NCBI GenBank assembly: GCA_030673895.1
Contig: JAUTCR010000026.1
Span: 1-49,692 of the forward strand
Origin: Verrucomicrobiota bacterium JB023
GTDB taxonomy: Bacteria > Verrucomicrobiota > Verrucomicrobiia > Verrucomicrobiales > Akkermansiaceae
Reading direction: 5' to 3'
DNA length: 49,692 bases
Shown here: piece by piece, positions 1 to 16,079 of the stretch
Numbering within the stretch: the first letter of the stretch is position 1
Layout of the letters: each line of letters opens with the position of its first letter
Translations under genes and position numbers: made by a program
Notes under the pieces: generated by a model
The model's database searches: none
Seen by the model: only the letters and a program-made list of their open reading frames with translations
What the model was told of the DNA's origin: nothing

Positions 1-54
1 CGGTTTTGTTTTGTTTTTATTAGTTCCCTTGCGGGAGGATTTGAGGTGCTCGAA

Positions 55-1323
55 TTACGAGAAAGTCAGTTCTTCACCGACTTCCCGATTCATTCGGGCA
101 TTCTCAAAAGCTTCTTCAGAGATGAGTCCCTGCTTAAGGAGATTCTTAAGGTTGGCGTCCCACTGGACGTTTCCACCCCGGCGGATGACATCTTCCAGAG
201 CGGTTGCGCCCTTGGAGTAGTTCATGATGGCACTCGCACAGGTATCATCATCATTTTGGAGAAATTCATAGGTAAGGACCCGGCGCTCGACGCCTTTCAG
301 GAGCCCTTGGGACATGATGAAAACCATCATCTCGCCCAATCGATTGAGAACAGCTTGCTGCCTTTCACTTGGATACATCTCAAGGATCCGGCCCATCGTC
401 TTGACCGCTCCGGTGGTGTGAAGGGTGGAGAGAACCAGGTGACCGGTTTGCGCCGCCTCAAGGCAGGTATCCATCGCTTCCCGGTCACGAATCTCACCGA
501 CCAAGATAACATGGGGAGCCTTACGCAGAACATCCTTGAGACCTTGGCGGTAGGAATCGAGGTCCCGCCCAACTTCTTGTTGAGTGACGACACTCGGCGC
601 TGGGACCTTGGTTCCCGAACCGTTCGGGTCGTCCATGTCGAAGGGATAGGCATATTCCACCGGATCCTCGACGGTGACGATATGCTTGGCTTTGTTTTGC
701 CGAAGCCAGTCAATGAGCGCGGCCAGAGTCGTCGATTTACCGGAGCCAGTCGGTCCGGTGACCAAACAGAGCCCGGCCCGGCGCTGAACCGATCGCTTGA
801 GGGAATCCAAAGTATCAGGGTCAATCCCCAAGACATCGAGAGGCGGAATACCATCATTCAGGATCCGGCAGGTGATGCCCAGGCCCGATGCAGAGAGGTG
901 CACCTGGATACGAAGACGGCCAGACACCTTGCCATTGGTCATCGGAATCCCATTGCAAGCAAAGTCGTCGACCCGATCCGTCCGCATCTTTTCGAAAGCT
1001 TCCCGAATCTTGGCATCGGTCCGTTCGTCCGAAGTTTCATTGCGGCCAAAACCATGATTCTGACTCTCGCGATTCTCAATGAGAGCCCGATACACATCGG
1101 ACATATTCTGCCTACTGAAGACGCCGAGCTGAGGAAGAACCTCCATCCCTTTATTCGTCTCCACATAGACATACCTTTCCGAACGCAACTGGATATCAGA
1201 GACGCCAAGCTGCTCACAAAGGTCGAAGACCCGGGACAGCAATTCCAATCCGGATCGGCCCTTGTTATCAGGGACTGCGGGTGCTGCAGCCTGAGGGATG
1301 GGCGGAGGAGCCAAAGCACTCAT
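55..1323 (-). CDS. PilT-like type IV pilus retraction ATPase
   Basis: This is a GspE/PilT-family secretion ATPase of 422 residues. Visible motifs are Walker A GPTGSGKST (about residues 187-195), the Asp box VEDPVEY (about 218), Walker B VILVGEIRD (about 271) and the His box TGHLVLSTLHTT (about 292-303). PilT-type hexamers power pilus retraction at the cytoplasmic membrane. It is longer than typical PilT (about 350 residues): there is a Pro/Ala-rich N-terminus and an insertion of about 15 residues between the Asp box and the QxEVGRD segment. The PilT hallmark AIRNLIRE is replaced by a segment starting AIMNYSKG. The ATG overlaps the upstream stop by 4 bases (ATGA), so it is the last gene of a four-gene operon with an ABC transporter. 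The family call is sure; a role in classical twitching motility is not. Confidence 0.9.
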   Translation of the reverse strand: MSALAPPPIPQAAAPAVPDNKGRSGLELLSRVFDLCEQLGVSDIQLRSERYVYVETNKGMEVLPQLGVFSRQNMSDVYRALIENRESQNHGFGRNETSDERTDAKIREAFEKMRTDRVDDFACNGIPMTNGKVSGRLRIQVHLSASGLGITCRILNDGIPPLDVLGIDPDTLDSLKRSVQRRAGLCLVTGPTGSGKSTTLAALIDWLRQNKAKHIVTVEDPVEYAYPFDMDDPNGSGTKVPAPSVVTQQEVGRDLDSYRQGLKDVLRKAPHVILVGEIRDREAMDTCLEAAQTGHLVLSTLHTTGAVKTMGRILEMYPSERQQAVLNRLGEMMVFIMSQGLLKGVERRVLTYEFLQNDDDTCASAIMNYSKGATALEDVIRRGGNVQWDANLKNLLKQGLISEEAFENARMNREVGEELTFS

Positions 1324-2159
1324 GAGCTGTGCCCCCCCTTCTCAAGAGTTGAGGTTTGTGTGACTCGGCGCAAAAGATTCTGCGCATCATCGTTCAGCTT
1401 ATAGAGATAGGCCGCACGCGCTTCCATCTCTTCCTGTCGGTATGAGGAAATATTAGCCCAGGAGCCATTAGCCTTCATGTCAGAGACCACTTGCTCATAC
1501 TCGGAAAGAAAGCGGGGGACGTAGTGACCGTAAGACAGAAGCTCCGAAGCTCCCCCCTCGAAGGCTTCCTGGAAAATTGCGCCGGTGACAACCAGATCGT
1601 AGGCTGCTTGGGCACCAGTCAGCATGCTGTAGGGATTTTCCTGATCCGAGAGACAGCTTTGGATAGTCGCTTGGGAAAGCTCCCGGCAGGCCCGGGCTCC
1701 TGTCACACCAAATTCGTTGAACGACTCAAACAAGAACATCTGATAGATGGCATAGTTCGAGTAATTGCGAGGGTCCATCTGCCAAGCCAATGCGAGACGC
1801 TTTTCGATCTTCGCCATCGCATGGCGTTCCTGCACAGGCGACACGGGACGGTGATCTGCGGCCTTCGACCTCTTCTCATTGAGGGCGGCCAACCAATCGC
1901 CGAAAGAGCGCTTCTCATCTGCCGATGCTAATGCGGACTCTTCCACCGCGCCGACACCTCGGTCCCAGAACTTGACGATAGGACCCTGTAAAGCCAAGCC
2001 CAAGGTTCTTCCATACGGGCTTCCCTTCAGACAAGCCACGTTCGGCTTCTTCTCCAGCAGCCCCGTATCGGAAATCGAATGATGGCCGAAAGAACAGAGC
2101 AAAGCACCCAAGCAGGCGGTCCCCGCCAATGCGATGGCATGTTGATAGGACTGGGTCAT
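1320..2159 (-). CDS. Hypothetical anchored protein of the ABC/PilT operon
   Basis: This 279-residue protein is not assigned to a family with a known function. It begins with a hydrophobic segment (about residues 8-26), probably a signal anchor or uncleaved signal peptide, followed by a conserved-looking stretch with SPYGRTLGLALQGP and a mostly helical, charged remainder. I chose the ATG at 2159 because it overlaps the stop of the upstream permease gene by 4 bases (ATGA). A frame extending to 2255 would run into that gene. Its own stop overlaps the PilT-like ATPase start in the same way. The strict coupling suggests a partner of the transporter or the motor; the exact role is unknown. Confidence 0.8.
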   Translation of the reverse strand: MTQSYQHAIALAGTACLGALLCSFGHHSISDTGLLEKKPNVACLKGSPYGRTLGLALQGPIVKFWDRGVGAVEESALASADEKRSFGDWLAALNEKRSKAADHRPVSPVQERHAMAKIEKRLALAWQMDPRNYSNYAIYQMFLFESFNEFGVTGARACRELSQATIQSCLSDQENPYSMLTGAQAAYDLVVTGAIFQEAFEGGASELLSYGHYVPRFLSEYEQVVSDMKANGSWANISSYRQEEMEARAAYLYKLNDDAQNLLRRVTQTSTLEKGGHSS

Positions 2160-2923
2160 GACTTGGCAGTTGTTCGGAAGGCAAAGCAAGAACCCGCTGT
2201 CGTCATCAACGACAGCCCAACCATGTAAAGTGCGATAGCGCCAAACACGCTCCATTCGAGGTGCCCCATCTTGAAGACCAAGCGGTCGGTGAGGTCGGCC
2301 AAGCGATAATGAGGTGAGACGGCGTAAAGTCCGCGGATCAGCGTGTTCGACTCCACCTTATTGGCCACATCAAGATAACCGACGCCGTAGAGGCCGTAGA
2401 GACTCACCCCGACACTCCCCAGATAACCAACCAGTGCACCCAGACGGCTCCCCAGGGCGATGGCCAACATCACGAGCGGAAGAACAACAAGAAGAAACAA
2501 GGCTGCATATTGAAGATTCGTCACCACCCAAGACATCGCTTCCTTCGAATCGGAAGGCCGTGCGCCCAAACAGCAGACCAAGACCGCTACTCCCACCAAG
2601 GGAACAAGGATGACGGCATGAGCGATCCAAATCTCAAACAATTGACGGAATCCATTCACGCCCATGCTCTTGAAATAAAGTCCCATCCCCTGCCTGGCAT
2701 TGCTGTCTCCTTGCCGCGCAGCCTGGCCAAACATCCAAAAAATCGAAACGAGCCACAAAAGGACCCAAGCCGCTTGAGCCCGGGCGGGTTGAACGAGACC
2801 GAGAGAGAACTCGGTCGGAACCAGGACAGGGAGAACAAAAGGAAGCACTCCCACACAGAGCAAGGCCACTACCCATGCCTTGCGCACGAGCAGAGTCTTG
2901 AGGGTGAGTTGGAAGAGTTTCAT
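2156..2923 (-). CDS. ABC-2-like multi-spanning permease
   Basis: This is a 255-residue integral membrane protein with about six hydrophobic segments. The first follows a short basic N-terminus (MKLFQLTLKTLLVRK), as is usual for ABC-2 type permeases. The start at 2923 lies 14 bases after the stop of the ABC ATPase gene. The longer open frame would overlap that gene, so I rejected it. Its stop overlaps the next gene by 4 bases. The protein probably forms the membrane channel of the transporter energised by the upstream ATPase. The substrate cannot be read from the sequence. Confidence 0.75.
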   Translation of the reverse strand: MKLFQLTLKTLLVRKAWVVALLCVGVLPFVLPVLVPTEFSLGLVQPARAQAAWVLLWLVSIFWMFGQAARQGDSNARQGMGLYFKSMGVNGFRQLFEIWIAHAVILVPLVGVAVLVCCLGARPSDSKEAMSWVVTNLQYAALFLLVVLPLVMLAIALGSRLGALVGYLGSVGVSLYGLYGVGYLDVANKVESNTLIRGLYAVSPHYRLADLTDRLVFKMGHLEWSVFGAIALYMVGLSLMTTAGSCFAFRTTAKS

Positions 2924-2937
2924 TGTTAGGCGTCGAG

Positions 2938-3609
2938 TTAGTTCAAAAATGTGCGGATTTCCCCCCAAGTGGCAGCGCCATTCTGGTGGTGAGTGAGGAC
3001 CTTGTCACAAATCACGAGTGCGCTCGGCACTTGCATGTCGTCGAAATCTGGGTGAGCACTCACCAACCTGATGACCTCGTCATCATTGGCCGTCCAGCGA
3101 TCGAGAAAGGCTTGCCGCGTTTGAGCATCAAGTCCGGTAAAGGGCTCGTCTAACATCTGGACCTCGCCCTTCTTCCCCTCGGTTCCAAAGTCTGCCAAAA
3201 GCAAGGTGACCTTCCTCTTGTTCCCAGTGGAAAGTTTGCCAAATGGCTTGTCGAGATCGAGCTCGATGACTTCAGCGAAGGCCAAAGCCTCGCGAAGCTG
3301 TCGCTTACCAGTGACCAAGCACTTGAGAATCGTTCTCGCGTTCAACTCCCGGTCGAACATCAACTCCTCCGCTAGAAAACGGCACCGACCCTCAACTTGG
3401 AATCCTCCGCCCAACGGCTTGATCAGCCCGCAAAGCGTGCGAAAGAGAGTTGTCTTGCCTCTCCCATTCCGACCCAACAAATAGTGGGTCCCTGCCGAAA
3501 GGTGAATTTCCTCATGAACCTCCGCCAGCGCGTCACGATATCCAATCCGCAACCCCGGTTGCAATCGGATTCCGCTGGCCTTATCGGCTGCTGGAGACGT
3601 GGTTTTCAT
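2938..3609 (-). CDS. ABC transporter ATP-binding protein
   Basis: This is a small (223-residue) ABC ATPase. It has Walker A GRNGRGKTT (about residues 46-54), an altered signature LSTGNKRK (about 123, in place of LSGGQ), Walker B MLDEP with the D-loop TGLD (about 148-158), and an H-loop histidine in SAHPDF. It is the first gene of the minus-strand operon that continues into a permease, an unknown anchored protein and a PilT-like ATPase. The signature LSTGN is common in exporters of the ABC-2 class (CcmA/NatA/GldA-like), which fits the neighbour. The export substrate is unknown. Confidence 0.85.
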   Translation of the reverse strand: MKTTSPAADKASGIRLQPGLRIGYRDALAEVHEEIHLSAGTHYLLGRNGRGKTTLFRTLCGLIKPLGGGFQVEGRCRFLAEELMFDRELNARTILKCLVTGKRQLREALAFAEVIELDLDKPFGKLSTGNKRKVTLLLADFGTEGKKGEVQMLDEPFTGLDAQTRQAFLDRWTANDDEVIRLVSAHPDFDDMQVPSALVICDKVLTHHQNGAATWGEIRTFLN

Positions 3610-3905
3610 TAAGGCGATTTAAATACGGACTTATCTTAAGCTTTTAATGTCATAACCCAAGCCTCAAGATTTCGAACTTCCTCAAACAATTGACTCGGGT
3701 CGGCGGAAAATTAACAAAACCGGACAAACCGGTCAATAATTTGTTCAATATTTCTAAAAAGTTTTTTAAGGCTGATTTTCAGGGCTTTTACAGACGTAAT
3801 TTTTTAAAGCGATTCCTCCTATTTTAGGCTTATTCCCCAATAAGGTCTTCGCGCTGCGTTTCTTCACACGACCCAGTAGATTTGCAATTACATGCAACAG
3901 GTCAC
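3610..3905. other. AT-rich intergenic region upstream of the ABC/PilT operon
   Basis: No convincing gene is present. The stretch is clearly AT-richer than its surroundings and must contain the promoter of the minus-strand ABC/PilT operon starting at 3609, but no -35/-10 pair is good enough to name. A short 5-bp hairpin with arms ACCGG and CCGGT lies near 3718-3735. Confidence 0.5.
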
Positions 3906-3938
3906 AAAAAAATCCGGAAAAGTGAATACTTTTCCGGA
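3906..3938 (-). terminator. Intrinsic terminator of the AAA/flotillin module
   Basis: A perfect 10-bp stem (3913-3922 paired with 3929-3938; arm TCCGGAAAAG) has a 6-base loop. On the minus strand it is followed by seven T (3912 to 3906). It lies 34 bases past the stop codon of the giant AAA ATPase and ends the module. Confidence 0.9.
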
Positions 3939-3971
3939 TAAAAATTTCCCTCCCTCTTAGGGAAGTTGCAT

Positions 3972-6900
3972 TCAGTTGCCTTGAGTGACCTCTGTATCGA
4001 TATCCAGTGCCTGGTCCGGATTTTTCTCGATGCTGGAGATCTCCCCACCTTCCTCTTGCACCGGCAGGACATTGATATCAACGCGAACCGGAACCTCCCG
4101 CAACCCGGCAATGATTTGCTCCAGTTGAGCGACAGTTTCTTTCCCTAGGCTTTGCGGCTTGGCGTAGCTCTCACCCGCCGCAGCAATCCCGCGCTCAATG
4201 GAGCTCAAGCCCGCACGAAATTCTTGCAATTGGGCGACGACACGGGCCACCGGGTCGTTCTCTCCAGCTCCACCTAAAAGTCGCTGTCGTTGGAACTCCA
4301 CCTTAATTTCCTCCCATCGGGCGGACTCGCTCTCAGATAACAAGCCTTCCATCTCCCTGAATTTGAGCAAATTAGCCTCTGCTCCCTTGGTCAGATTCTG
4401 CGCTTCGCTCACGTAGTGGTCCACCACCAGCTCCTGAAGCTCTTCATCCGTCATCAGGGAAACAATCTTCTCGGCGATGCGATTCATATTCCGATAAGAG
4501 CCCTGCAGCTTGAAGGGTGGCTCCGTCCGATACGCATCCTCTTGGCCGGCGCTGGCGATGTATTGGCTGTTCACCCGGGAGATCGTCTCTCGAACGGACA
4601 GCATCAGCGTCATGATCCGAGTGAATTCCTCAATCTCGGCTGGCGTGTGATTCCCCGCAAATTCAACCTCTTCGAGGCTGGCGCCGCTGGCCAGCTTCAT
4701 CACGGCACGGACATCCCCCAGCCCGGCTCCAGCCAATTTAGCGAGAACAGGATTCGAGGTCAGAGAGTTCTCGATGTAGCTCGACTTGAAAGCGTCTTCA
4801 TGCCCTCCGAGCATATCGCCCAGATTATAAGTGTCTGCGCGGTTGGCCAGCATGTCCGGAATTTGGAATTTGCCTCCACTCTCCGTATAGGGATTGCCCG
4901 CCATCACCACCGCGACCTTTTTCCCTTTCAGGTCATAGGTCTTTGCCCGGCCTCGATAGACCCCTTCGATTTTTCGCTGTGCATCACAGAGGCTGATGAA
5001 CTTCTGCAAGAATTCGGGATTGGTGTGCTGAATATCGTCAAGGTAGAGCATCACGTTGTCTCCCATCTCCAGCGCCAGATTGAGCTTATCCAGCTCCTCG
5101 CGAGCGGATCGGTCAGCAGCCAGAGAAGGGTCGAGGGACACCACATTGTGGCCAAGGGCCGGCCCATTGACTTTCACAAAAGTCAGCCCGAGACGATTGG
5201 CGATGTATTCCATCAGCGTCGTCTTCCCGTAGCCAGGAGGTGAGATGAGGAGGAGCAGCCCCATCCGGTCCGTGCGCGACCCGGCGTCCGCGGTCCCCAT
5301 CTGCTTCGCCAGATTATCGCCAATCACCGGTAAATAGACTTCGTCGATGAGACGGTTCCTAACAAACGCGCTCATCACCTTCGGCTCGAATTCTTCGAGC
5401 TTCAGCTCTTCTTTCTTCTCAGCCAAGACCTCCTGCTTGACCCGTTGCAACTTCTGGTAGTTCGGGAAGGTCTCCCTCTCGAAACGGCTCAGCCGATAGA
5501 CAAAATCAGTGAAATCAAGCGGAAGGACTCCCCCCTCAATTCGCGGATGATCGCCACGCAAGCCGCTCACTTCAACGTGCAGATTGGCCCGCTTAATCTC
5601 GGAGGGCTCATAGCCGCCACGGGCAAGATGCGCAGCCGCCTCCTTGAGATAAGGTGAATCACCTTGCGAATGAGCCCCCTGCAGCCAATCGAGAGCAAGA
5701 CGATAACGGGAAGAGGCATCAGGTAGCTCTTTCAAAGTTTCCTCGAAGGAGGCCTTGCCGCGCTTCGCTGTCAGCTCGCTCGTCAAATGGCGCAGGGCAG
5801 TCGCAGCCTCTTGCGAGACCACGAATCCCGACCGGTGTTTCCACTCTTCAAAGAGGTAAGCCGCTATTTCAGAAGCTTTGACTTGTTCGGAGAATCCAGA
5901 TGCCTCTACCCGCTCAAGCAATAGACCTGCCAATTCCTCCTCGAGATGATGCCGCTTCGCCGCCTCACCTATTGAGCGATGGTCCCCAAAGGTTCGGACC
6001 CGCTCGCCATGGGCCCGGATCATCTGGATAAGCCTCTCCTTCCCCTCTCCAACCCAATCCTCCGCAACGACGATGGCTGCTGCCCTCACCTCGGGAGAAA
6101 AGCGAAGAAGGCCTGCCTCGTTCTTCATTGGGACAAGATGGGCTAACAACTTCGCGGCATCCTCGTCATGGACACCCTTGACGTAGCCTTCCGTATAGCG
6201 CTCTTCCGTCACCTTCCGGATTGCCTCCGCGATGCGAGCGGACTTCTCCTCCCCTTCCCCGTCCGTCAGACCGTTCTCAGATTCCGTGGTGAAATAGCGC
6301 TCCAAGCACTGCCAGGCGAGCCACTCCGCGCGATAGACCTCGCGACTCTCACTTGCCGCCTCCATCTCCCAGACATCCCGCAATGAATGAAGGCGCTCAT
6401 CCTCGATCTCCTCAAAGTAGTCGGTGCCCGCAAGATGAAACCATAACCCGCCATCACGGGGAACCAGCGTGAGCTCAAGCCCCCGAGTATTGACACTGAA
6501 CGCATGACGGCCAAGTCGAATGACGTTTTGTCCATCAACATACAGCTCCTTCCGATCTTTCAGCTGCCGGACGGCATCTTCACGAAGCGTTTTGAGCTGG
6601 GTCCGCAGATCCTCCGACTTCACCCCGTCGCCAAGCTCATTGAGTTCATCAATGCTCTCCCTAACTTTCTCGACCATCAGGTCGGAGGCAAAGTAGCCAC
6701 TGATGTCCTCAACAGACTGGAACCCTTCAACCCGCCTCTTGATACCTGTTAGAATCCGCTCAGCGGATCGCAAGACCGTATCCGCGCGCCGCGTTCGCGC
6801 ATCCATGAGCTGCTGCTTCCGTCCTTCGAAGGCCTCATAGACTTCCTCGCGCTTGCTTGCCAACTGGTCGGCATAGTCATCGAATTCACCGAACTTCCCT

Positions 6901-9074
6901 TCCAGCTCCTCAATCTGAACCATCAGACGATTTAAGGACTCGTCACATTTCTCCGGCTTATCACAGAGCTCCAGATAGTTGACGACAGCCTGACCTAACA
7001 ACTTCAGCTGGGCACCGAACTGCGCCTCACCCTCCGCCATGGCCAAGGCCGTGCGCCGGTTCTTGAGTTCGGCACGCACGCCATTGAGCCGCGCGAAGAT
7101 ACTAGATATCCCGTCGATGATAGCCGTGGTCTGCGTGGCATCCTCGATCTTGAGATTGCTCACCACCTCGATCAGCATTTCGAGTTCCCTTCCCCCTTGA
7201 TCGAGGGCCTCCCCCACCTCCTCGGCTTCGGTTACTTTCTTGAGCCCAGCGATGCGAGCCGCCTGCTCTTCGATCAGTTCCGAAAAAGGTTCCAGCGCCT
7301 TCTCGCCGAGAAGAAAATCGACCGTCTTGCGCGAGGTCTCCCCAGTGGCCTTGACCACCTCTTCCTCGAGCTCATCCGTCACCGCCTCATCGACATAGCG
7401 CACCTCGCGTAGGGCGATGATCTCACCCCGGCGTTGACGTAGCTCGGTGAGATGATGAACAAAGCCAACAATATCATCAGGAGCAGCATAGCGGATTCTC
7501 TTAAGCAACTCCTCGACCTCCGCCTTTTCCTCCTTGAGCCTCCGCGCCGCCACTTGCCTGAGAGCCCTCACCTTGTCGAACTCATCCATCGCCGCCTTTG
7601 CGGCTTGGTTGATTTCGCGCAGGGGAACCGCCAAATTGGCTGCCTCCTCCCGAGGCATCCAGAAGTAGGAATCAAGTATCGCCTCAGTCCTTTTCAGCAA
7701 ATCGAGATAAAGGCCTCCATAGCTGTCTTCTTTTCCTAACAGAACAAGGACTTCGCGGCATTCGGACATTCCGCGGACCAGATTCGCGTTGCCCACTTTG
7801 AAGATGAAGGAGTCCTCATCCGCGTTCCTCGCGGCCATGACCTCTTGGGAGAGATAGGGCGTCTTCCAAATCTGCAGAAGATGATGCTTCTGGGGCTGTT
7901 CCTCGGTCTTGAAGTAGACCAGTTCGCCGTTCGGGAAGAGCGAGTAACCATTGCAAACCACCGGGGTATCGACCGTCTGCTCAATCAGATTGTAGGAGAG
8001 GAGAATGTAGTCGCCGCTCACCCGATTGTAGAAGACGAACATGGTGTCTTCCCCATTGGCCGAGGGGATGCGTCTCTCGAACATCATGTTCGTTAGATCG
8101 TTTTCAAAGACCTTCACCTCTCCCGTCATCAGGAGGTAGCCATTGGAAAAAATGAGCCCTTGCTCATCAGGCAAGAGAACGCAGGAGTGACCGATGGCAT
8201 CGATCCGCCTGACCTCCCCAGTCTTCTCATTGAAGACCAGGTAGCGATGCAACTCCTCCCGATAAGGAAGGATCTTTAACAAGACGAGAGGCCCGACCTC
8301 GGCAAAGAAGATCTCGGCATCGTCCAAGGATTGATCGGAATCATCGACGGGCTCTGAGTAAATTCCCTCTCCACTCGCGGTGTTGTCCTCCAGCTTGATG
8401 GTCAGGTCACCTCCGACGGTCTCGACAAAGAGACGGTCGTTGATGGAAATGTGCGGGTGCTCACCGGCACGATGCATGTCGCGATGAGCCCGCTGCCACT
8501 CAAACTCCTGCTGGGGTGGATAGACAAACTCATGGTCGAAGCGATTACCAATGTACTCGAGCTTGCCGTCACCCTTTCTCAGCCATTTGAAGGTCTTGAA
8601 GTCCTCTACCCCCTTGCCGATGCGCATCTTCATATAAAGATGCGCACCTATCACCATGAACTTGGCGAAGACCGTCTCCTTATAGTATTTGTAGAGATAC
8701 TTGAAGTCCTCGATGAAGGCTGGGTCCCCGATGATCTCCTCGAAGGGCAGCGGATGGAAGACATGTTCCTCCGGGTCATACTCATAGGCAGAAAAAACGT
8801 CCGGAACCTCAGTGGTTTGCTTGAGACCAAACTGGATATTGTAACCGAAAAGAAAACGATTACCTCCGACCGCGATCATATCGCGAGGCACGCAATTGTG
8901 TTCCGTCGTCACTCGCTCGGTCGAGACGAGGGCCGTCTCGACCGCGCCAAAGATCTCTTTCCGGCTCTCGTTCAGCAACGCCAGCCTTTTCCGCAACTCG
9001 CCCGCCTGTTTGTCCAGGCGCGAGCGAATCACTTCATAACTGCCGCCTTCCAACTGTTGTTCTTTATCAGACAT
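3972..9074 (-). CDS. Giant AAA ATPase (DUF3686/'DNA repair ATPase' family)
   Basis: This protein has about 1700 residues. The N-terminus (about 1-480) resembles the family annotated as DNA repair ATPase, usually described as DUF3686 plus an AAA domain. The middle (about 500-850) is rich in charged coiled-coil helices. An AAA domain follows at about 1250-1450, with Walker A PPGYGKTT (about 1284), Walker B MLYLDDIQH (about 1347) and a sensor-1-like VVMAGNPYTE. I chose the ATG at 9074; an in-frame GTG at 9086 is the alternative, and neither has a clear Shine-Dalgarno. It lies 89 bases downstream of a flotillin gene, an arrangement recurrent in bacteria next to YqiJ/YqiK-type proteins. The function is not established and the DNA-repair label is only an annotation tradition. 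An activity on membrane-linked assemblies is inferred from context. Confidence 0.88.
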   Translation of the reverse strand: MSDKEQQLEGGSYEVIRSRLDKQAGELRKRLALLNESRKEIFGAVETALVSTERVTTEHNCVPRDMIAVGGNRFLFGYNIQFGLKQTTEVPDVFSAYEYDPEEHVFHPLPFEEIIGDPAFIEDFKYLYKYYKETVFAKFMVIGAHLYMKMRIGKGVEDFKTFKWLRKGDGKLEYIGNRFDHEFVYPPQQEFEWQRAHRDMHRAGEHPHISINDRLFVETVGGDLTIKLEDNTASGEGIYSEPVDDSDQSLDDAEIFFAEVGPLVLLKILPYREELHRYLVFNEKTGEVRRIDAIGHSCVLLPDEQGLIFSNGYLLMTGEVKVFENDLTNMMFERRIPSANGEDTMFVFYNRVSGDYILLSYNLIEQTVDTPVVCNGYSLFPNGELVYFKTEEQPQKHHLLQIWKTPYLSQEVMAARNADEDSFIFKVGNANLVRGMSECREVLVLLGKEDSYGGLYLDLLKRTEAILDSYFWMPREEAANLAVPLREINQAAKAAMDEFDKVRALRQVAARRLKEEKAEVEELLKRIRYAAPDDIVGFVHHLTELRQRRGEIIALREVRYVDEAVTDELEEEVVKATGETSRKTVDFLLGEKALEPFSELIEEQAARIAGLKKVTEAEEVGEALDQGGRELEMLIEVVSNLKIEDATQTTAIIDGISSIFARLNGVRAELKNRRTALAMAEGEAQFGAQLKLLGQAVVNYLELCDKPEKCDESLNRLMVQIEELEGKFGEFDDYADQLASKREEVYEAFEGRKQQLMDARTRRADTVLRSAERILTGIKRRVEGFQSVEDISGYFASDLMVEKVRESIDELNELGDGVKSEDLRTQLKTLREDAVRQLKDRKELYVDGQNVIRLGRHAFSVNTRGLELTLVPRDGGLWFHLAGTDYFEEIEDERLHSLRDVWEMEAASESREVYRAEWLAWQCLERYFTTESENGLTDGEGEEKSARIAEAIRKVTEERYTEGYVKGVHDEDAAKLLAHLVPMKNEAGLLRFSPEVRAAAIVVAEDWVGEGKERLIQMIRAHGERVRTFGDHRSIGEAAKRHHLEEELAGLLLERVEASGFSEQVKASEIAAYLFEEWKHRSGFVVSQEAATALRHLTSELTAKRGKASFEETLKELPDASSRYRLALDWLQGAHSQGDSPYLKEAAAHLARGGYEPSEIKRANLHVEVSGLRGDHPRIEGGVLPLDFTDFVYRLSRFERETFPNYQKLQRVKQEVLAEKKEELKLEEFEPKVMSAFVRNRLIDEVYLPVIGDNLAKQMGTADAGSRTDRMGLLLLISPPGYGKTTLMEYIANRLGLTFVKVNGPALGHNVVSLDPSLAADRSAREELDKLNLALEMGDNVMLYLDDIQHTNPEFLQKFISLCDAQRKIEGVYRGRAKTYDLKGKKVAVVMAGNPYTESGGKFQIPDMLANRADTYNLGDMLGGHEDAFKSSYIENSLTSNPVLAKLAGAGLGDVRAVMKLASGASLEEVEFAGNHTPAEIEEFTRIMTLMLSVRETISRVNSQYIASAGQEDAYRTEPPFKLQGSYRNMNRIAEKIVSLMTDEELQELVVDHYVSEAQNLTKGAEANLLKFREMEGLLSESESARWEEIKVEFQRQRLLGGAGENDPVARVVAQLQEFRAGLSSIERGIAAAGESYAKPQSLGKETVAQLEQIIAGLREVPVRVDINVLPVQEEGGEISSIEKNPDQALDIDTEVTQGN

Positions 9075-9163
9075 CTTTTTAACCACGGAGGGGCATCATG
9101 AAGCACGAACCCTCTATCTTCTCTTGAGATGGCTAGGGTTCGCGCTCCTGTGAGGTCACTTAA

Positions 9164-11182
9164 TCAGCCAATCCGCTTCAAGACTTCTCCAGCCTTGGCA
9201 TCGGACAGCCCAAAACGCTCGGCGGCACCGAGAAGGCCCGCAATCTTCTCACGGTCATCATCCTTGGCCACAGCGGAAATCCGTCCTAACAGAGCGGCGA
9301 CGGAGAGATTCTTAAGGTCTTCGGACTCGACCCCGTAGTCCTCGATCCACTGTCCCAGCTGGCTCTTGAAGTAGTCCGGGTCGCCGTTGAAGAAGGTTTC
9401 CTTCACATCCCCGATGACCCGGCTGTTGTTCACCACCCGGTCTACGGTCTTGCCAGTAGTGATCGCATTGGTAATGCGGTCGAAGAACTGGGTCTCGCCG
9501 CCCACGATGTCGATTTTGGCACTCTTGAGAGCCTCGCCGACCACCTTGGCCTGCTCGGCGGCAATGAGGCGCTGGACATCGATCTGTGCCAGGTCGACTT
9601 CTTTTTCCTTCTCGAGTTCGAGCTTGAACTCCTCGTGCTCCTGCCCGGCTTCTTCGAAGAGCTTCATGGCCGCAGCCTTCAGCTCGATGGCTTCCGCATC
9701 GGCCATTCCTTTTGCTTTGAGAACCTCTGCTTCTCCCAATCCGGTGGCAGCGGCTTCCTTGGCGATGGCCTCGGCCAGCATCTTCTTGGCCTGCGAGACC
9801 TTCTCGGCCGAAGTCTGTTCCGCCTCCGCGGCAATGACCTTTTCTTCCGCCAGCATTTCGGCTGCCTTGCGCTTGGCTTCGGCATCTTTCATCACCTCGT
9901 AGGCGTGCTCGTCGGCAGCGAGTTGCGCGGCCTCCTTCTGGGCCTCAGCCTGCTTGATGCGCTCAATCATCTTCTCCTGCGCCTCAGCTTCCGCCAAGGT
10001 GACGGTGACTTGCTTCTGACGATCCGCAGTCGCGAATTCCTCCGTATCCTTGATACGCTGTTGCTCTTCCACCACGGTCTTCTCCACGGCCACCCGCTCG
10101 CGGATGACGTCCTGGATTTCTTTCTTCTGCACCTCGACCGCTTTCTCAGCCTCGATACTCTTCAGTTCGGTGACGCGCTCGCGCTCAATCTCCTCCAGCT
10201 TCCTTTCCCGCTCGACCCGCTCCAGCTCGACGGCATCCGTTCTCTCCTTGTTGCGTAGAGCGACCAGAACCTGACGCTGCTTATTCTCCTCCGATATCTG
10301 AATTTCTTCTTCAGTCGCAATGCGCGCTTGCTCCATCTTCTTACGCTCTTCCTCTTTGACCTTGGCAGCTTCGGCTTGTTCGCGCGCTTCCACGGTTTCG
10401 ACTTCCCGCTTCTGCTTTGCTTCCGTCTCCGCCAGTTGACGCTCCAGCTCCAGGATGGCCTCGCGCGCTTCCACGTCCTGTTGCTTGATGACGCGCTCTT
10501 TATCCCGCTGGATATTGTTAGAGAGCTTGGCCTGGGTCGCGGTCAGCTCGGTGATCTTCTTTATCCCTTCCGCATCGAGAATATTCTCAGGGTCTAACAT
10601 CTCGAGTGGCGTCTGCTCAAGGAAGTCGATGGCCGCATCATCAAGAACGAAGCCGTTCAGATCGGTTCCGATCACCTTCAGAATTTCGTCGCGGAAGGTA
10701 TCACGGTCTTCGTAAAGTTGGATAAAGTCAAAACGCTTACCCACTGTTTTCAGGCCTTCCGAGAATTTGGCATCGAAGAGCGCCCGAATCTCCTCCTCCG
10801 ATGAGGCGCGGTCGCATCCCACACTCTCAGCGACGCGCAAGACATCGTCCGAGGCATTGTTCACTCTCACAAAGAAGGCCACCTTGATGTCCGCCCGCAT
10901 GTTATCCTTACAGATCAGGCCATTCCTTCCGGTCCGATCAATCTCAATACGCTTGAGCGAGATATCCATCATATCGGCGCGGTGGGCGATGGGGACCACG
11001 ACCCCCCCATTGAAGTAAACCTTCGTCCCGCCCATGCCAGTGCGGATTAGCGCGGTCCCTTTCTCCACCTTCCGATAGAAGGTCAGGAGGATGAAAATGC
11101 CAAAGCCAATGATGGCGGAAATCCCGACAAGCACGACAGCGGCGGTCGCGCCACCCAGATCAAGGAAGGCGAGTGAATGCAT
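9164..11182 (-). CDS. Flotillin-like SPFH/band 7 protein (YqiK-like)
   Basis: This protein of about 672 residues has one N-terminal transmembrane segment (about 13-33), an SPFH/band 7 domain (about 40-210) and a very long Glu/Ala/Lys-rich coiled coil (about 210-540). A C-terminal conserved segment contains IVGGETQFFDRI. This is the flotillin architecture; such proteins oligomerise on the inner membrane and organise membrane domains. The start at 11182 is preferred. An in-frame ATG four codons upstream (11194) is equally possible. It sits between the OB-fold membrane protein and the giant AAA ATPase, all on one strand, and probably forms a complex with them. Confidence 0.9.
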   Translation of the reverse strand: MHSLAFLDLGGATAAVVLVGISAIIGFGIFILLTFYRKVEKGTALIRTGMGGTKVYFNGGVVVPIAHRADMMDISLKRIEIDRTGRNGLICKDNMRADIKVAFFVRVNNASDDVLRVAESVGCDRASSEEEIRALFDAKFSEGLKTVGKRFDFIQLYEDRDTFRDEILKVIGTDLNGFVLDDAAIDFLEQTPLEMLDPENILDAEGIKKITELTATQAKLSNNIQRDKERVIKQQDVEAREAILELERQLAETEAKQKREVETVEAREQAEAAKVKEEERKKMEQARIATEEEIQISEENKQRQVLVALRNKERTDAVELERVERERKLEEIERERVTELKSIEAEKAVEVQKKEIQDVIRERVAVEKTVVEEQQRIKDTEEFATADRQKQVTVTLAEAEAQEKMIERIKQAEAQKEAAQLAADEHAYEVMKDAEAKRKAAEMLAEEKVIAAEAEQTSAEKVSQAKKMLAEAIAKEAAATGLGEAEVLKAKGMADAEAIELKAAAMKLFEEAGQEHEEFKLELEKEKEVDLAQIDVQRLIAAEQAKVVGEALKSAKIDIVGGETQFFDRITNAITTGKTVDRVVNNSRVIGDVKETFFNGDPDYFKSQLGQWIEDYGVESEDLKNLSVAALLGRISAVAKDDDREKIAGLLGAAERFGLSDAKAGEVLKRIG

Positions 11183-11238
11183 TGTTGTTCTCATACGTTT
11201 TGTTCAGTTTGTTTTTTTGAGTATCGAAAATCTTCTTT

Positions 11239-11916
11239 CTATGAGTTCAGGGTCAATTCTTCCCCTTTCGTCGAGCGAACGAGGAACTTGTCTTTCTCCT
11301 TGTCGTGCCCAATAACGAGAACGCTGTCTCCTCTCACCAGGGCTTCACGACCCTCGGGCAAAATGGCATTAAGCAACGCCGGAGCACCGTTCTTTCGAGG
11401 CACTTCAATCTGGCCGAAATCATGGTCGAGCACGCGGCTCTTTACCGTCCCTGATAGACCGATGAGCGGCTCTTGGTGCTCTTGATCATTCTTGATCGCA
11501 CGCATGAGAGGCCGTAGTGGCTGCGTGACAGCCTTCACGGCCAATGCGCTCACGATGAAATTTCCAATGAGCAGCCCCATTGCCATCCAGCCACTACCCT
11601 CCGCATTGAGATAAGCATTCGAAAGGATCGAAACGGCCCACATGAAGAGAATGAGGAGACTCAGGACAATCATCAGCGGGACATCTTGGGCATTGACGAA
11701 GCGCAGCATTGTCCCGACGACGCCTTCCGTCGCCTGCCCTTGCCCCTCCGCGTCACCCTCAAGGTCGCCGTCGAGCTCGATGTCAAACGTATCGAGGTCA
11801 ACTGTCCCTATCACGCTAAGCAGCCAATAAATGGCAACGAGGATAAGCAGACAAGTCAGAGGCAAATTATATCCTAACCAGGCTTGGTCCCATAGCTCCT
11901 TCACAACGGCGGTCAT
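11239..11916 (-). CDS. OB-fold membrane protein (DUF1449/YqiJ-like)
   Basis: This is a 225-residue protein with three hydrophobic segments (about residues 17-38, 76-98 and 108-130). An acidic loop lies between the first two. A soluble C-terminal domain (about 145-225) contains GLSGTVKSRVLDHDFGQIEV and GDSVLVIGHD and looks like the NfeD/YqiJ-type OB fold. NfeD- and YqiJ-type proteins are regular partners of flotillins. It is the promoter-proximal gene of the flotillin/AAA module, about 56 bases before the flotillin start. Confidence 0.85.
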   Translation of the reverse strand: MTAVVKELWDQAWLGYNLPLTCLLILVAIYWLLSVIGTVDLDTFDIELDGDLEGDAEGQGQATEGVVGTMLRFVNAQDVPLMIVLSLLILFMWAVSILSNAYLNAEGSGWMAMGLLIGNFIVSALAVKAVTQPLRPLMRAIKNDQEHQEPLIGLSGTVKSRVLDHDFGQIEVPRKNGAPALLNAILPEGREALVRGDSVLVIGHDKEKDKFLVRSTKGEELTLNS

Positions 11917-12086
11917 CCAAGCGTGAAAGGACTTCTCTTACGATTACAAAAGGCCTTCTAAATTCCCATCTCAACCTTGGGTGCGAGGCGGCCCCAGACA
12001 AGCCAACGGACCTTACCGGATAGGAGCCTGCGAAGCGGAGAGTCGAAACCCCGAGAGCTTTCTTCCCATTCGAGAGGTCTTCACGC
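11917..12086. promoter_or_regulatory. Divergent promoter region, flotillin module versus lipase
   Basis: This 170-base gap separates the minus-strand OB-fold/flotillin/AAA module from the plus-strand lipase gene, so promoters for both must lie here. A Shine-Dalgarno GAGAGG at 12072-12077 precedes the lipase ATG by 9 bases. I cannot identify a clear -35/-10 pair. Confidence 0.5.
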
Positions 12087-13538
12087 ATGCTCCTCGGCGT
12101 GATCATTCGTCATCTCGCGTTCTGGGGCATTCTCTTGCTAGTTTCGTGTGGCGGGATACCCAAGGCCCCTGATCTGGAGGGGCGCTACGGCTTGCTTCCT
12201 CAGAAGGAGACTCGGCAGCTCATCAAGCATTGGAGCCATGCAGGATTTCCGGCCGAGATCCAAGGCCGCCCCGTTCGGGTGATCAACCGCCATCCGGAGC
12301 TTTCTGCCATCGAGGCCATTACCCCGGCTGGCTCCTTTTCTGACGATGATGGCCGCAGCGGGGTTCTCGGCTCGCTCGCGATGGCTCACCCCCAGACTCA
12401 CTATTACACCCAACCGTTGGGCAGTCACCTCTGGCAGATCAGCAGCCAACCCGCGACCGTCCTCGCTTCTGTCTCGCAAGATTCGTCCATCGAGCTCGAA
12501 TTCCGGGATTTTCGCGATACCCCCTTCGTGAACGGCCAAAGGCTGGCCTCACGATCCGAATTAACCTTCGATTACATCAAGGAGCAGGAGCCTGAAGGAC
12601 TCGTGAACCTCCTCACTCTGATCGATCCCCGCCTGTGGTCGGAGCGGAGGGGGTTCTACCTGGGCACGCCTTATGATCCGGAGAAAATCCCCCTGGTTTT
12701 TGTTCATGGACTCCTTTCGACCCCGGTCGCCTTCGAGAAGCTCGCCTCGGCCATCGCCGCCGAGCCCGATCTTTGGGATCGCTACCAGCTTTGGTATTAT
12801 TTTTACCCTACCGGAGACCCTTGGATCTTGTCCGCTGCCCACTTCCGCCGGGATTTCCGTCGTCTCACCCAGCTGCTGGACCCCGAGAACGACGATCTCC
12901 CGCTTCGGAAGGAAACCACAATCATCGCTCATTCCATGGGCGGCCTCATCACCCGGCTCTCACTTTCCGAGCAACCGCAGCCACTCTATGATCACTACTT
13001 CACCCGCCCGCTCAATCAGCTGCGATTGCTTCCCTACCAGAAAAACCGGATTCGGGACCAGCTCCTCTTCGAACCATTGGCAGAGCCATCGAAGGTCATC
13101 TTCCTCGCCACACCGCACAGTGGGTCCAAGTTGGCGGGCGGCTTCCCCCTCTGGCTGGCACGCACTTTAGTCAAGGCGCCCGCACGCATTCTCGACACCA
13201 CCTTCAATACCGCTCAGATCTTCGCGACCATCCAGCCCCAGGCTATCACGCCGGATGGCTACGCCCTCCTCACCGGCAATGAGGTTTCAGTCAATGGGCT
13301 CGCCCCCGGCCACCCGGCTTTGGCTTGCCTTGAACAGATGCCGATCCGCAAGGGAGTGGAGCTCCACAATATCGTCGCCTCGCTCACTGGACCCGATGGA
13401 TCCATCGGGGACGGAGTGGTCCCGCTGGATTCCGCCCGCCTCAAGCAGGCGGATACCGAGACCATCATCCGCGGCAACCATTGGCTCGTCAACGATCCGG
13501 AAGCCCATCGGGCCGTAATCCGGTTGCTGCGGAATTAG
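12087..13538 (+). CDS. Lipase-like alpha/beta-hydrolase lipoprotein
   Basis: This protein of 483 residues has a signal peptide ending in the lipobox LLVSC, so it is probably a lipid-anchored envelope protein. The alpha/beta-hydrolase signs are an oxyanion-loop VFVHGLL (about residue 207), a nucleophile elbow AHSMGG with Ser about 282, a likely acid in GDGVVPLD (about 440) and the catalytic His in GNHW (about 465). It resembles triacylglycerol lipase/PGAP1-type hydrolases (COG1075-like). The start is supported by GAGAGG 9 bases upstream. It is transcribed away from the flotillin/AAA module. A link to membrane-lipid handling with that module is only inference. Confidence 0.85.
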   Translation: MLLGVIIRHLAFWGILLLVSCGGIPKAPDLEGRYGLLPQKETRQLIKHWSHAGFPAEIQGRPVRVINRHPELSAIEAITPAGSFSDDDGRSGVLGSLAMAHPQTHYYTQPLGSHLWQISSQPATVLASVSQDSSIELEFRDFRDTPFVNGQRLASRSELTFDYIKEQEPEGLVNLLTLIDPRLWSERRGFYLGTPYDPEKIPLVFVHGLLSTPVAFEKLASAIAAEPDLWDRYQLWYYFYPTGDPWILSAAHFRRDFRRLTQLLDPENDDLPLRKETTIIAHSMGGLITRLSLSEQPQPLYDHYFTRPLNQLRLLPYQKNRIRDQLLFEPLAEPSKVIFLATPHSGSKLAGGFPLWLARTLVKAPARILDTTFNTAQIFATIQPQAITPDGYALLTGNEVSVNGLAPGHPALACLEQMPIRKGVELHNIVASLTGPDGSIGDGVVPLDSARLKQADTETIIRGNHWLVNDPEAHRAVIRLLRN

Positions 13539-13586
13539 CTTCCCCTTCCCCTCGCCATCCTCGGCCGAGTCGTCTATCGTCTACCC

Positions 13587-14273
13587 ATGCCGCTGAGCGA
13601 CCCACCCAACCGTCGTTCCCTCAAGGAAGCAGAAGAACGGGCTCTCTGGAATACCCCTGCGCTCAAGCTTTTTCTTGTCGGCTTCGCGCTCGTCACCTTC
13701 CTTTTCCTTCGCATTGGCGCCTTTAATCACTTCGCCACTCCGCTGTTCTTATGCATCACACTGCTGAGTGCTTATCTCTATCAAAGGCAAGCGATCTCCC
13801 AAGAGCGTCCCAAGCGCTGGGAGCACCTATGGGCTATCTGGCTGAACAGACGGGAGGACTATTTCCGGCAAAAAATTGACGATATCATCGCAGATAAGCC
13901 TTCAATCTCCCGAACAGTGCTCGATCCTTTGCTTTCTGTCCGGAGAGACCTTATCTCCGCCGTCAAAAGCGACGATCGAAATGAGCTGGAAGAGCATCAG
14001 TTGAGCTACCTGCTTAAGTTCGACGGACTGGCGGACTCCGCTCTCACTGCCCTCCAAGAGCATGATGAGAGACAGCCCCTGACCGAGGTCATCAAACTGG
14101 GCGAGAAGCTGATCGAGGAAATCCCGCTTGTTCTCTCTCCCCTGCAGGCTGGGGATGATTTCGATTATGCTGACTTCCAGCGCGAGCTGGATGCCTTGCA
14201 AGACGAGCACGCGATCAAGGTCGGCGTCTCCCGCCGCCTGCAAGCGGATAAGATCAAGCCTGGCTCAGCCTAG
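13587..14273 (+). CDS. Hypothetical two-helix membrane protein
   Basis: This is a 228-residue protein without a recognised domain. Two adjacent hydrophobic segments (about residues 27-44 and 48-64) form a membrane hairpin after a charged N-terminus. They are followed by a soluble, helical, acidic tail with heptad-like patterns. It lies 48 bases after the lipase gene on the same strand and may be co-transcribed with it. Confidence 0.65.
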   Translation: MPLSDPPNRRSLKEAEERALWNTPALKLFLVGFALVTFLFLRIGAFNHFATPLFLCITLLSAYLYQRQAISQERPKRWEHLWAIWLNRREDYFRQKIDDIIADKPSISRTVLDPLLSVRRDLISAVKSDDRNELEEHQLSYLLKFDGLADSALTALQEHDERQPLTEVIKLGEKLIEEIPLVLSPLQAGDDFDYADFQRELDALQDEHAIKVGVSRRLQADKIKPGSA

Positions 14274-14421
14274 GCCATCGCTCGCCTGAAGGTCCTTATG
14301 GGCGCTTTCGAAAGGCAGATAGGGTCGTCGTTTCCGTGCTTTCGGATGGCACAAAATCACGGTTAAATGCCTCGGCTCCCTTCCCCTTACTTAAGAAAAG
14401 TTAAGTGCCAAAGCGAAAGAC

Positions 14422-15582
14422 ATGTGGAACAATGCCGTATTGTCCCGCGTGAAGACACTTCTTGTGACGCTGGCAGGAATGCTTTTCGCTTCCCTCACGA
14501 GCTGCGTGAATACGCAGGTTGAGCATCAGCTGGATGAGCATTCTGCTGCCGAAGGGCTTCGCCATGCGGACGAGGTCTTGGCCCAATCTCCTTTTGATAC
14601 CGTCAAGATGAGCTGGTCGGAGGCCGAGGCACTCATGGAAGTGCGGAATCGGGAATACAAGGAGGCTGAGGAGACCTATGAGAAAGCAGTCGCCCAGCAG
14701 CCTCTGATCAAGGAATTTGCCGGCCAGGCCAAGAAAACGGCCACGGTATCCATTGGGGATGTGCTCAAGCCCTCTGCTCTTCTCAAAACGGTCAAGGAGC
14801 CGACGACCCAAATTCCCCAGCAACTGGCCTCGATTAGCAAGATTAAGGACTTTTCCCACGATCTGGAGCAAGATGCTTGGAACTCGACCGCCCAAGCGGT
14901 TGATGCCGAGATGAAAATGCGAGAAGAGAAGGTCAAACTGTACTCCCTCCTCCGCAAGGGCGCCCTCTTGGATCGCGAGATGGAGTGGCTCGAATCCCTT
15001 GAGCCCTTACCCGAGGACGCCAACGCGAAGATGAAGTCCGCCTTCAAGGCTTGGCGCAATCGCCTCGAAGGCGAGAAGAACAAGTGGCTTACCGACGTGC
15101 GCAACCTCTTCGATGCCGAGTATCACGATGTCCACTTTGTTCAGGATCAAACCGGCCTACCAACCTACCGCAAAACCGACCGGCCCGACCTCACCGACTG
15201 GCCTCGCTGGGCTCAACTCCGTCGCTCCAAGAAGCTGGTTAGCGCACTGAGCAAAGAGCACAAAGAGAGCAAACCCACCATCCCCGGCACCAAGATGGTG
15301 AAAAGCAAAGTGTCCGCCCTCACCTCCAATCTCACGGGGAACCAGACCGAGCCAACATTGGCGACCAAGGACATCCGCAGCGAAGTGCGGAAGCTCATCC
15401 AGAGCTGGCGGGAGATGAAGAATGCGCAACGTAAGGCGGAAGAACTGGAGAAGAAAGAGGAGGTCCAGAATGCCCCCGAGCTCGCGAGCATCAACGATCG
15501 TCAGGCCATCTATAACCTGAGGAATCAGGAGATCCAGCACGCCAGCGTCGTCTGGCTGATGGACGAGCAATGCTGGCCCTGA
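14422..15582 (+). CDS. Hypothetical lipoprotein with helical domain
   Basis: This is a 386-residue protein whose N-terminus ends in a lipobox-like LTSC (about residues 25-28), so it is probably a lipoprotein. The remainder is highly charged and helical, with a Lys/Glu coiled-coil stretch (about 325-350) and no recognised domain. A downstream GTG at 14449 would give a more typical short signal peptide (VKTLLVTLAG), so the true start is uncertain. There is no obvious functional link to its neighbours. Confidence 0.65.
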   Translation: MWNNAVLSRVKTLLVTLAGMLFASLTSCVNTQVEHQLDEHSAAEGLRHADEVLAQSPFDTVKMSWSEAEALMEVRNREYKEAEETYEKAVAQQPLIKEFAGQAKKTATVSIGDVLKPSALLKTVKEPTTQIPQQLASISKIKDFSHDLEQDAWNSTAQAVDAEMKMREEKVKLYSLLRKGALLDREMEWLESLEPLPEDANAKMKSAFKAWRNRLEGEKNKWLTDVRNLFDAEYHDVHFVQDQTGLPTYRKTDRPDLTDWPRWAQLRRSKKLVSALSKEHKESKPTIPGTKMVKSKVSALTSNLTGNQTEPTLATKDIRSEVRKLIQSWREMKNAQRKAEELEKKEEVQNAPELASINDRQAIYNLRNQEIQHASVVWLMDEQCWP

Positions 15583-16001
15583 AGCCGTCGGGCTTGGCCA
15601 AGCATGATTTGCCCTGTGTTCCACCGCCGGGATGCGGTGGTCGGCAGTATCTTTTTTGCCGATTTCATCAACTTTTTTGGAAATCGGTCTTCGGGGTTTC
15701 GGTTGTCGTATGCGGGAACAACAACACTCCCGCTTTTTCTTCTCGAACGATGATGCCCGAATACGAATCAACTAGTCCAAGCTGCCTTCACGGCGGCTTG
15801 AGGCAAATTTGGCTCTATGGCCGTCGTCTCGTCCGGAAAGAGAGCTTCTCGTGGAAACGAACCGGTATGGGGCACAACCTGACTAGGCCCAGCCAGTGCC
15901 CCGGTAGCGAGTGGATGAGCGAAGCCGGCCTTCGGTCAGTCGCCCTGCCCACTGTCAATTCCCCGACCTCTGGGACGCTTCCATAAACAACGCACTGGAG
16001 T
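15583..16001. other. Structured intergenic region, possible 3'UTR or small RNA
   Basis: No credible protein gene is present; a 138-codon open frame (15570-15986) has no recognisable composition or domain. The region instead holds a series of hairpins: 15621-15640 (7-bp stem CCACCGC/GCGGTGG), 15659-15687 (8-bp stem CCGATTTC/GAAATCGG), a terminator at 15712-15742, and 15778-15800 (9 bp with one G-T pair). The density of stems ending in a terminator suggests a structured transcript end or a small RNA. Confidence 0.45.
15712..15742 (+). terminator. Intrinsic terminator
   Basis: A 6-bp stem (GCGGGA at 15712-15717 with TCCCGC at 15728-15733) and 10-base loop are directly followed by TTTTTCTTC. It lies 130 bases after the stop of the lipoprotein gene, so it ends that transcript or an independent small RNA. 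Confidence 0.75.
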
Positions 16002-16036
16002 CTGATCATCCCAAGGGGTGATCAGGCTCCTTTTCC
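16002..16036 (+). terminator. Terminator-like hairpin between convergent genes
   Basis: CTGATCATCCC (16002-16012) pairs with GGGGTGATCAG (16015-16025), giving a long stem with one T-G pair, followed by GCTCCTTTTCCC. It lies between a plus-strand and a minus-strand gene. The T-tract is weak and on the plus-strand side only. Confidence 0.45.
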
Positions 16037-16079
16037 CTCTCCCACCCGGCTCCAATTACCTGGAGATGACGTGCTGACC

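Follow-up and report, generated by a model that had tools for sequence, protein, structure and literature searches.

In the source excerpts available, a source of energy for building, moving or dismantling the flotillin scaffolds of bacteria is named only in proposals of a general kind by Ravi et al. (PMC11237479). The window, by which we mean the whole 49,692-nt stretch of DNA from Verrucomicrobiota bacterium JB023 that was analysed, encodes a flotillin in tandem with a giant AAA+ ATPase. If this ATPase acts on the flotillin through the flotillin tail, the locus would specify ATP-driven control of a membrane scaffold. An operon of flotillin, YqiJ and AAA+ genes, with and without PspA, is described in the available part of Ravi et al. 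2024 (PMC11237479). The module itself is therefore already published, and the addition made here is a flotillin tail that differs from that of other flotillins.

Layout of the locus and its membrane proteins

The three genes were found in tandem on the minus strand over positions 11916-3972, in the order small membrane protein, flotillin, ATPase. The features of the locus, with the evidence used to assign them, are as follows.

11239..11916, minus strand: YqiJ-like membrane protein, 225 aa (ORF, hydropathy, Pfam, profile against E. coli YqiJ)
9164..11194, minus strand: YqiK-type flotillin, 676 aa (comparison with YqiK, profile probability 100, hydropathy)
9167..9757, minus strand: flotillin C-terminal tail, covering residues 480-676 (sequence and profile comparison)
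3972..9086, minus strand: DUF3686-AAA+ ATPase, 1704 aa from a GTG or 1700 aa from the ATG at 9074 (ORF, Pfam, 38-sequence alignment)
7662..8999, minus strand: DUF3686 domain, ATPase residues 30-475 (Pfam)
7050..7301, minus strand: DUF7902, ATPase residues 596-679 (Pfam)
4884..5255, minus strand: AAA+ core, ATPase residues 1278-1401 (Pfam, motif alignment)
3912..3939, minus strand: intrinsic terminator of 12 perfect pairs with a 4-nt loop, followed by T6 (sequence scan, folding)

The gap between the small-protein and flotillin genes was 44 nt, and that between the flotillin gene and the ATPase GTG was 77 nt, or 89 nt if the ATG is taken as the start. The in-frame ATG at 9074, which gives a protein of 1700 aa, is probably the start of the ATPase, because aligned homologues have Met first at this position. 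The terminator hairpin lay 3' of the ATPase stop, and the 72-nt stretch containing it folded at -26.1 kcal/mol, compared with a shuffle mean of -14.3 (z -4.2). Upstream of the module, the neighbouring gene at 12087 on the plus strand pointed away from it across a gap of 170 nt, in which a consensus scan detected no sigma-70-like site. These findings confirmed the preliminary description of three same-strand genes with short gaps that close on a perfect terminator. The divergent promoter side that it had proposed was recovered as far as the divergent gene is concerned, but not as a promoter sequence in the consensus scan of the gap.

When six neighbouring genes of the window were used as queries, weak generic ABC-ATPase matches were obtained at two other loci; apart from these, the six genes were absent among the ORFs listed around the module elsewhere. 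As the neighbours were not recovered at other loci, the conserved unit in these sequence comparisons seems to consist of the three genes.

The flotillin was identified by aligning it directly with YqiK of E. coli, to which it was 32% identical over 429 aa (E 2e-53) spanning the SPFH domain and coiled coil, together with a weak match to NCBIfam FloT (24 bits, where the cut-off is 700). Pfam gave no match to this protein up to E 1. The protein comprised one N-terminal hydrophobic segment, an SPFH domain, a long coiled coil and a C-terminal tail. Since the N-terminal hydrophobic segment is followed by positive residues, the positive-inside rule suggests that the body of the flotillin is cytoplasmic. 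Among 30 module flotillins, Band_7 matched two, and Pfam Flot (PF15975) likewise matched two, with a best E of 0.0016; Flot did not match the window flotillin, compared with E 6.4e-41 for YqiK.

Hydropathy analysis of the small protein revealed three hydrophobic segments (residues 12-43, 73-105 and 109-131). Its C-terminal part appeared YqiJ/NfeD-like, and profile comparison with E. coli YqiJ gave a probability of 96.6. The Pfam profile YqiJ_N matched it at E 3.6e-4, which falls below the cut-off, and matched 11 of 27 homologues at E<=0.01; NfeD matched 2 of the 27. YqiJ_OB, which represents the OB-fold C-terminus, had no Pfam match in the small protein.

Co-occurrence of ATPase and flotillin

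Co-occurrence was examined in 387 genomes of the Verrucomicrobiota, the phylum of the window genome, with counts that are not phylogenetically independent. The ATPase, recognised by DUF3686, was found in 34 of these genomes. Window-type flotillin (E<1e-100) was detected in 33, every one of them ATPase-positive, and in none of the 353 ATPase-negative genomes, with the best three candidates at most scored per genome in this search and up to seven in the tail search described below. Weaker flotillin matches were seen in nine further genomes, none of which carried the ATPase. Small protein, flotillin and ATPase were contiguous in the same order and on the same strand in 28 of the 34 ATPase genomes. 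Contig ends leave contiguity undecidable in G015, G129 and G360; in G284 and G086 the flotillin and ATPase genes lay on separate contigs and were not adjacent; and G191 carried the ATPase with no flotillin matched by either the whole-flotillin or the tail search. Within the family of the window genome, one genus contained both G240, with ATPase and flotillin, and G215, with neither, and neither protein was found in the 19 genomes listed for another genus (g2).

In a plasmid collection of 72,556 records, the ATPase was found in 12 records, some of them whole chromosomes as judged by size, from Bacteroidota, Actinomycetota, Deinococcota and Pseudomonadota; it was also found in one genome contig. 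At the named loci, the flotillin gene was upstream of the ATPase gene on the same strand in 13 of 13 and adjacent to it in 12, and the small protein was present in 12 of the 13. Fewer than 400 nt separated the edges of the flotillin and ATPase profiles at 19 of the 28 phylum loci and at 12 of the 13 named loci, while 0.4-3.6 kb lay between flotillin and ATPase at the remaining 9 of the 28 contiguous loci.

Inserts examined between flotillin and ATPase encoded an ABC transporter pair, a histidine kinase with a regulator, a Schlafen-like protein and a GxxExxY protein. Because the inserted genes vary between loci, they were taken as insertions and rejected as members of the module.

The first alignment, made under a simple non-overlap rule for ORFs, contained 38 ATPases, 37 flotillins and 33 small proteins. 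Long antisense ORFs had masked some genes under this rule, and loci were remapped with profiles; most of these loci had themselves gone into the profiles, and only L078-L085 are independent of them. A scan of genome contigs recovered a single relative, probably owing to its requirement for near-exact peptides, and a peptide-pattern scan of viral contigs confirmed none. A search of E. coli genomes at the DNA level with an ATPase stretch of Proteus, a type of search that may miss distant relatives, gave no match. Known defence models matched the three proteins only weakly and in part (best E 1.7e-4), and no ATPase match was found in 50,697 phage records; on these two results, phage defence was rejected as the best reading of the module.

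The recurrent module anticipated in the preliminary description was thus borne out by the contiguous loci, by the presence of a flotillin somewhere in 33 of the 34 ATPase genomes and by the shared strand at every named locus; homologues occurring mostly apart, which would have spoken against it, were not the rule. The accompanying statement that YqiJ/YqiK pairs and DUF3686 ATPases recur together holds for the window-type module but proved too broad, as no DUF3686 ATPase was found beside yqiJ-yqiK of E. coli K-12 or of one E. coli plasmid. Given the recurrence of the module, an ATP-driven machine on a flotillin scaffold, as first suggested for this locus, is kept as the best reading of its proposed function.

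The flotillin tail

The window flotillin had only the SPFH domain and coiled coil in common with YqiK, and its tail differed. The last 200 or so residues of the module flotillins carried the conserved motif HEEF and, further towards the C-terminus, IVGG and GK.VD..S. When compared with a 686-position profile of module flotillins, six ATPase-free flotillins (E. coli YqiK, the copy on an E. coli plasmid, and the flotillins of G119, G128, G131 and G163) matched only up to positions 452-472. In the flotillin search, matches in G119, G128, G131, G163 and G228 stopped at residue 477-478, the match in G161 spanned residues 30-444, and those in G010 and G099 reached residue 524 weakly (E about 2e-4). 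For G228, G161, G010 and G099, whose flotillins the profile comparison did not recover, the assessment relies on these match ranges.

A profile of the tail matched 32 of the 387 genomes at E<1e-60, and all 32 were ATPase-positive. The ATPase genomes without a tail match were G191 and G360, the flotillin of the latter being cut by a contig end. Seven ATPase-negative genomes gave weak tail matches (E 1e-7 to 8e-4), of which six were confined to positions 5-79 of 231 and one, in G143, covered positions 14-125. Among the 72,556 plasmid records, the tail alone (E<=1e-3) was found in nine, all of them among the 12 with the ATPase. The ATPase records missed by this search were those of Pseudomonas, Halomonas and Photobacterium (3 of 12), and the match in two Proteus records was marginal (E 9e-4, covering 35% of the query). 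Pseudomonas, Deinococcus and Halomonas had shorter versions of the tail. Some flotillin match at 1e-5 was present in 318 plasmid records, which are highly redundant since 229 are from Escherichia. Thus, in the samples searched, strong tail matches were restricted to genomes with the ATPase.

A distant SPFH protein of G352 matched positions 397-530 of the flotillin profile. Because this protein, the flotillins of G010 and G099 and the genomes with weak matches all reach the start of the tail, the coil-like tail start is, on these match ranges, non-specific, and the putative ATPase-linked specific part begins near HEEF, at about residue 520.

An exploratory comparison of protein distances was made over 38 loci, which omits the second Proteus record (L085) and loci without one of the three proteins and in which locus pairs are not independent. 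Correlation with ATPase distance was r 0.90-0.93 for the tail, 0.85-0.91 for the coiled coil and 0.81-0.88 for the SPFH domain. With the other segments held constant, partial r with the ATPase was 0.36-0.45 for the tail, 0.14-0.25 for the coiled coil and 0 or below for the SPFH domain; the partial r of the small membrane protein (0.33-0.52) was about as high as that of the tail.

The tail goes with the ATPase, whereas the coiled coil is common to ATPase-free YqiK-type flotillins, which makes the former, and not the latter, the best candidate site of contact with the ATPase. This difference moves the expected contact point off the coiled coil, where the preliminary description had placed it by suggesting that the coiled-coil middle of the ATPase could touch the flotillin coiled coil. 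That suggestion was not supported, and pairing of the two coiled coils was rejected as the specific contact on the distribution of tail and coiled coil, although contact at either place may occur. An operon layout with such spacers would also be compatible with genes that are merely co-transcribed and co-inherited and whose proteins make no contact. However, a lack of contact would leave unexplained both the difference in the tail according to ATPase presence and the joint retention of ATPase and tailed flotillin in G284 and G086 despite separated genes, and we consider it very improbable.

The ATPase, its possible substrates and known systems

Pfam matches to the ATPase were DUF3686 (E 1.9e-185), DUF7902 (E 1.1e-27) and AAA (E 3.8e-7), and the score of 617 bits for DUF3686 (PF12458), against a curated cut-off of 25, places the protein in this family. 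DUF7902 lay within a helical stretch at about residues 505-785, whose helices were modelled with pLDDT mostly 59-83 in an otherwise poor model; this stretch is probably a coiled coil. Structure predictions from two-sequence alignments reached a pLDDT of 48 for the N-terminal 577 residues and 45 for residues 505-1704.

A P-loop AAA+ domain began at about residue 1278. In the aligned homologues, Walker A read PPGYGKTT in 37 of 38 and PPGYGKTP in one. Walker B, (Y/L)(L/V)DDIQH, and sensor 1, M(A/S)GNP, were found in all 38 and read YLDDIQH and AGNP in the window protein, where NRAD and SYRNM motifs followed downstream of sensor 1. At the second acidic position of Walker B, where Glu is usual, 38 of 38 ATPases had Asp, and strong ATP hydrolysis is therefore not guaranteed. 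AAA, AAA_5, AAA_22 and RuvB_N each matched all 26 ATPase members scanned. In a PDB profile search with the AAA+ region, most of the 60 matches listed, out of 129, covered only the surroundings of Walker A (Rix7, NVL, p97, RuvB).

The ATPase is assigned to DNA repair in its RefSeq product names and in the text of its Pfam entry. In addition, knock-out of the YqiK-type gene SO1377 of Shewanella changed iron metabolism and was accompanied by more spontaneous mutation and peroxide sensitivity, a phenotype that the authors, in the available part of their paper, link to iron, the ATPase not being its subject (PMC1468410). However, the regular partners of the ATPase are membrane proteins, and its P-loop fits AAA+ families and not the ABC type of Rad50/SbcC. 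A search of the open-licence literature found no paper with 'DUF3686' and none joining 'DNA repair ATPase' and 'flotillin'. On its membrane partners and type of P-loop, DNA repair was rejected as the function of the ATPase and is regarded as extremely unlikely; if action on the flotillin through the tail is true, the database name 'DNA repair ATPase' becomes doubtful.

In 9 of the 34 ATPase genomes, PspA-like genes lay immediately upstream in the same orientation. The Agaribacillus and Hymenobacter loci also had PspA directly upstream, and in pQBR103, a plasmid of Pseudomonas fluorescens SBW25 that carries the module with a short version of the tail, PspA was located several genes upstream; weak PspA-like genes were present downstream on the opposite strand in G039 and G048. 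These arrangements favour a reading, near that of Ravi et al. 2024 in the text available (PMC11237479), in which the ATPase mainly acts on PspA (ESCRT-III-like) polymers, as Vps4 does on Snf7, and flotillin merely localises it. However, no PspA match at E<=1e-3 was detected in 10 of the 34 ATPase genomes, and the window genome had a single weak match, outside the locus and below the Pfam curated cut-off. PspA was also found close to the flotillin genes of G128, G131 and G163, which are without the ATPase. Positions 1-20000 of the window had no match to profiles of PspA or of Tir, the latter built from two sequences. Because ten ATPase genomes were without a match and ATPase-free loci carried PspA as well, PspA is, as judged from these distributions, an optional partner and tailed flotillin the regular one. 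PspA as an obligate partner was rejected on the ten genomes without a match, and action mainly on PspA polymers is judged unlikely.

We propose, with a probability of about 0.5, that the module is a membrane-bound flotillin scaffold with its own ATP-driven remodelling enzyme, recruited by the tail and probably serving under envelope stress. In this model the flotillin would be anchored by its one N-terminal helix and face the cytoplasm, as predicted by the positive-inside rule, and would probably form a ring or cage through the SPFH domain and coiled coil. By analogy with known SPFH/NfeD pairs, the YqiJ-like partner may aid assembly of the flotillin. The special C-terminal tail would then recruit the giant AAA+ ATPase, which would spend ATP to disassemble, rearrange or load the scaffold, or to handle clients gathered there, with envelope stress as the probable trigger. 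A strong everyday role would be at odds with deletion phenotypes: in the portions of the reports available, no marked phenotype is described for most of the SPFH deletions made in P. aeruginosa (PMC13086221) or for the loss of yqiK in E. coli (PMC2636767). A more specific version, in which the tail is a recognition element by which the ATPase threads or levers flotillin from SPFH cages as a PspA-free counterpart of Vps4/ESCRT-III, is tentative and somewhat unlikely. Alternatively, the tail may do no more than recruit the ATPase, the true substrate then being PspA or membrane proteins.

Membrane proteins would be the substrate in a quality-control system resembling FtsH-HflK/C, in which an SPFH cage gathers clients for unfolding or folding by the ATPase, with no protease involved. 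Such a system is in keeping with the binding of the AAA+ enzyme FtsH to the SPFH proteins HflK/C, as stated in the source excerpts available, and with the ATPase, in which Pfam detected no protease domain. However, such a system has no known client here, hydropathy revealed no membrane segment in the ATPase, and we regard quality control as doubtful.

The operon of Ravi et al. (PMC11237479) contains the same three genes, and the window module represents its shorter, PspA-free form. The abbreviated form described in the available part of that paper, with a band-7/coiled-coil flotillin, a 3TM YqiJ-like protein and a large AAA+ ATPase, corresponded gene for gene to the window module, whereas the CesT/Tir-PspA dyad of the full form did not occur there. 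Their ATPase form has N-terminal beta-propeller repeats, for which the window protein gave no supporting match: a PDB sequence search with the ATPase N-terminus had no match at E<=10, the model of the N-terminal part was poor (pLDDT 48), and comparing the N-terminal domain with itself in 60-column blocks yielded no clear repeats, the 20 best pairs reaching probabilities of 6% at most. The main text of PMC11237479 does not contain 'DUF3686', and in the parts available no mention was seen of a differing flotillin tail or of co-occurrence counts.

E. coli yqiJ-yqiK has the same gene order, a match to the YqiJ profile and the 32% identity in SPFH domain and coiled coil; it differs in that no ATPase adjoins it and that YqiK ends in Pfam Flot, whereas the window flotillin ends in the special tail. 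HflK/C-FtsH, in the source parts available, likewise combines an SPFH scaffold with an AAA+ enzyme; in contrast to FtsH, the window ATPase has DUF3686 and is without a detected membrane segment or protease domain. Vps4/ESCRT-III and the PspA-linked AAA+ ATPases are likewise AAA+ enzymes encoded with a membrane-scaffold protein, but the regular partner in the window module is flotillin rather than PspA or Snf7.

Small ORFs in the module spacers

Comparison of the module loci revealed that ORFs of the GxxExxY/PDDEXK_3 type are recurrent in the spacers within and next to the module. This assignment was made by a Pfam match for loci L036 and L044, and by similarity for the remaining loci.

L044, L047, L048, L052: GxxExxY/PDDEXK_3-type ORF in the flotillin-ATPase spacer
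L036: GxxExxY/PDDEXK_3-type ORF close to the ATPase gene
L050, L051, L058: GxxExxY/PDDEXK_3-type ORF in the spacer that separates the PspA and small-protein genes

In L041, a 23S-rRNA-intervening-type ORF lies within the flotillin-ATPase spacer. Small inserted genes seem to have been taken up repeatedly by the module spacers that carry ORFs of either type.

Other content between the flotillin and ATPase genes

In genome G237, which belongs to the same genus as the window, the flotillin-ATPase gap measures approximately 860 nt (L039:7706-8564), as compared with 77 nt in the window, and contains nothing but one long ORF, unlabelled, which overlaps the end of the flotillin gene. The corresponding interval in Agaribacillus (L002:7715-9932) encodes a DUF5687 protein together with an ABC ATPase.

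Variant module genes and the downstream neighbour

An additional SPFH-like protein of 170-190 aa was found in two genomes of one genus, G333 and G384; its gene lies in the interval that separates the small membrane gene from the flotillin gene.

L046:4904-5476 and L040:12265-12783: additional SPFH-like protein

The ATPase of genome G360 (C78; L061:312-5376) is encoded as two ORFs of 556 aa and 1067 aa, perhaps reflecting a frameshift or a true split. Downstream of the module, the window starts with a type II/IV secretion ATPase gene.

55-1323, minus strand: type II/IV secretion ATPase gene, matching T2SSE at E 2.9e-42
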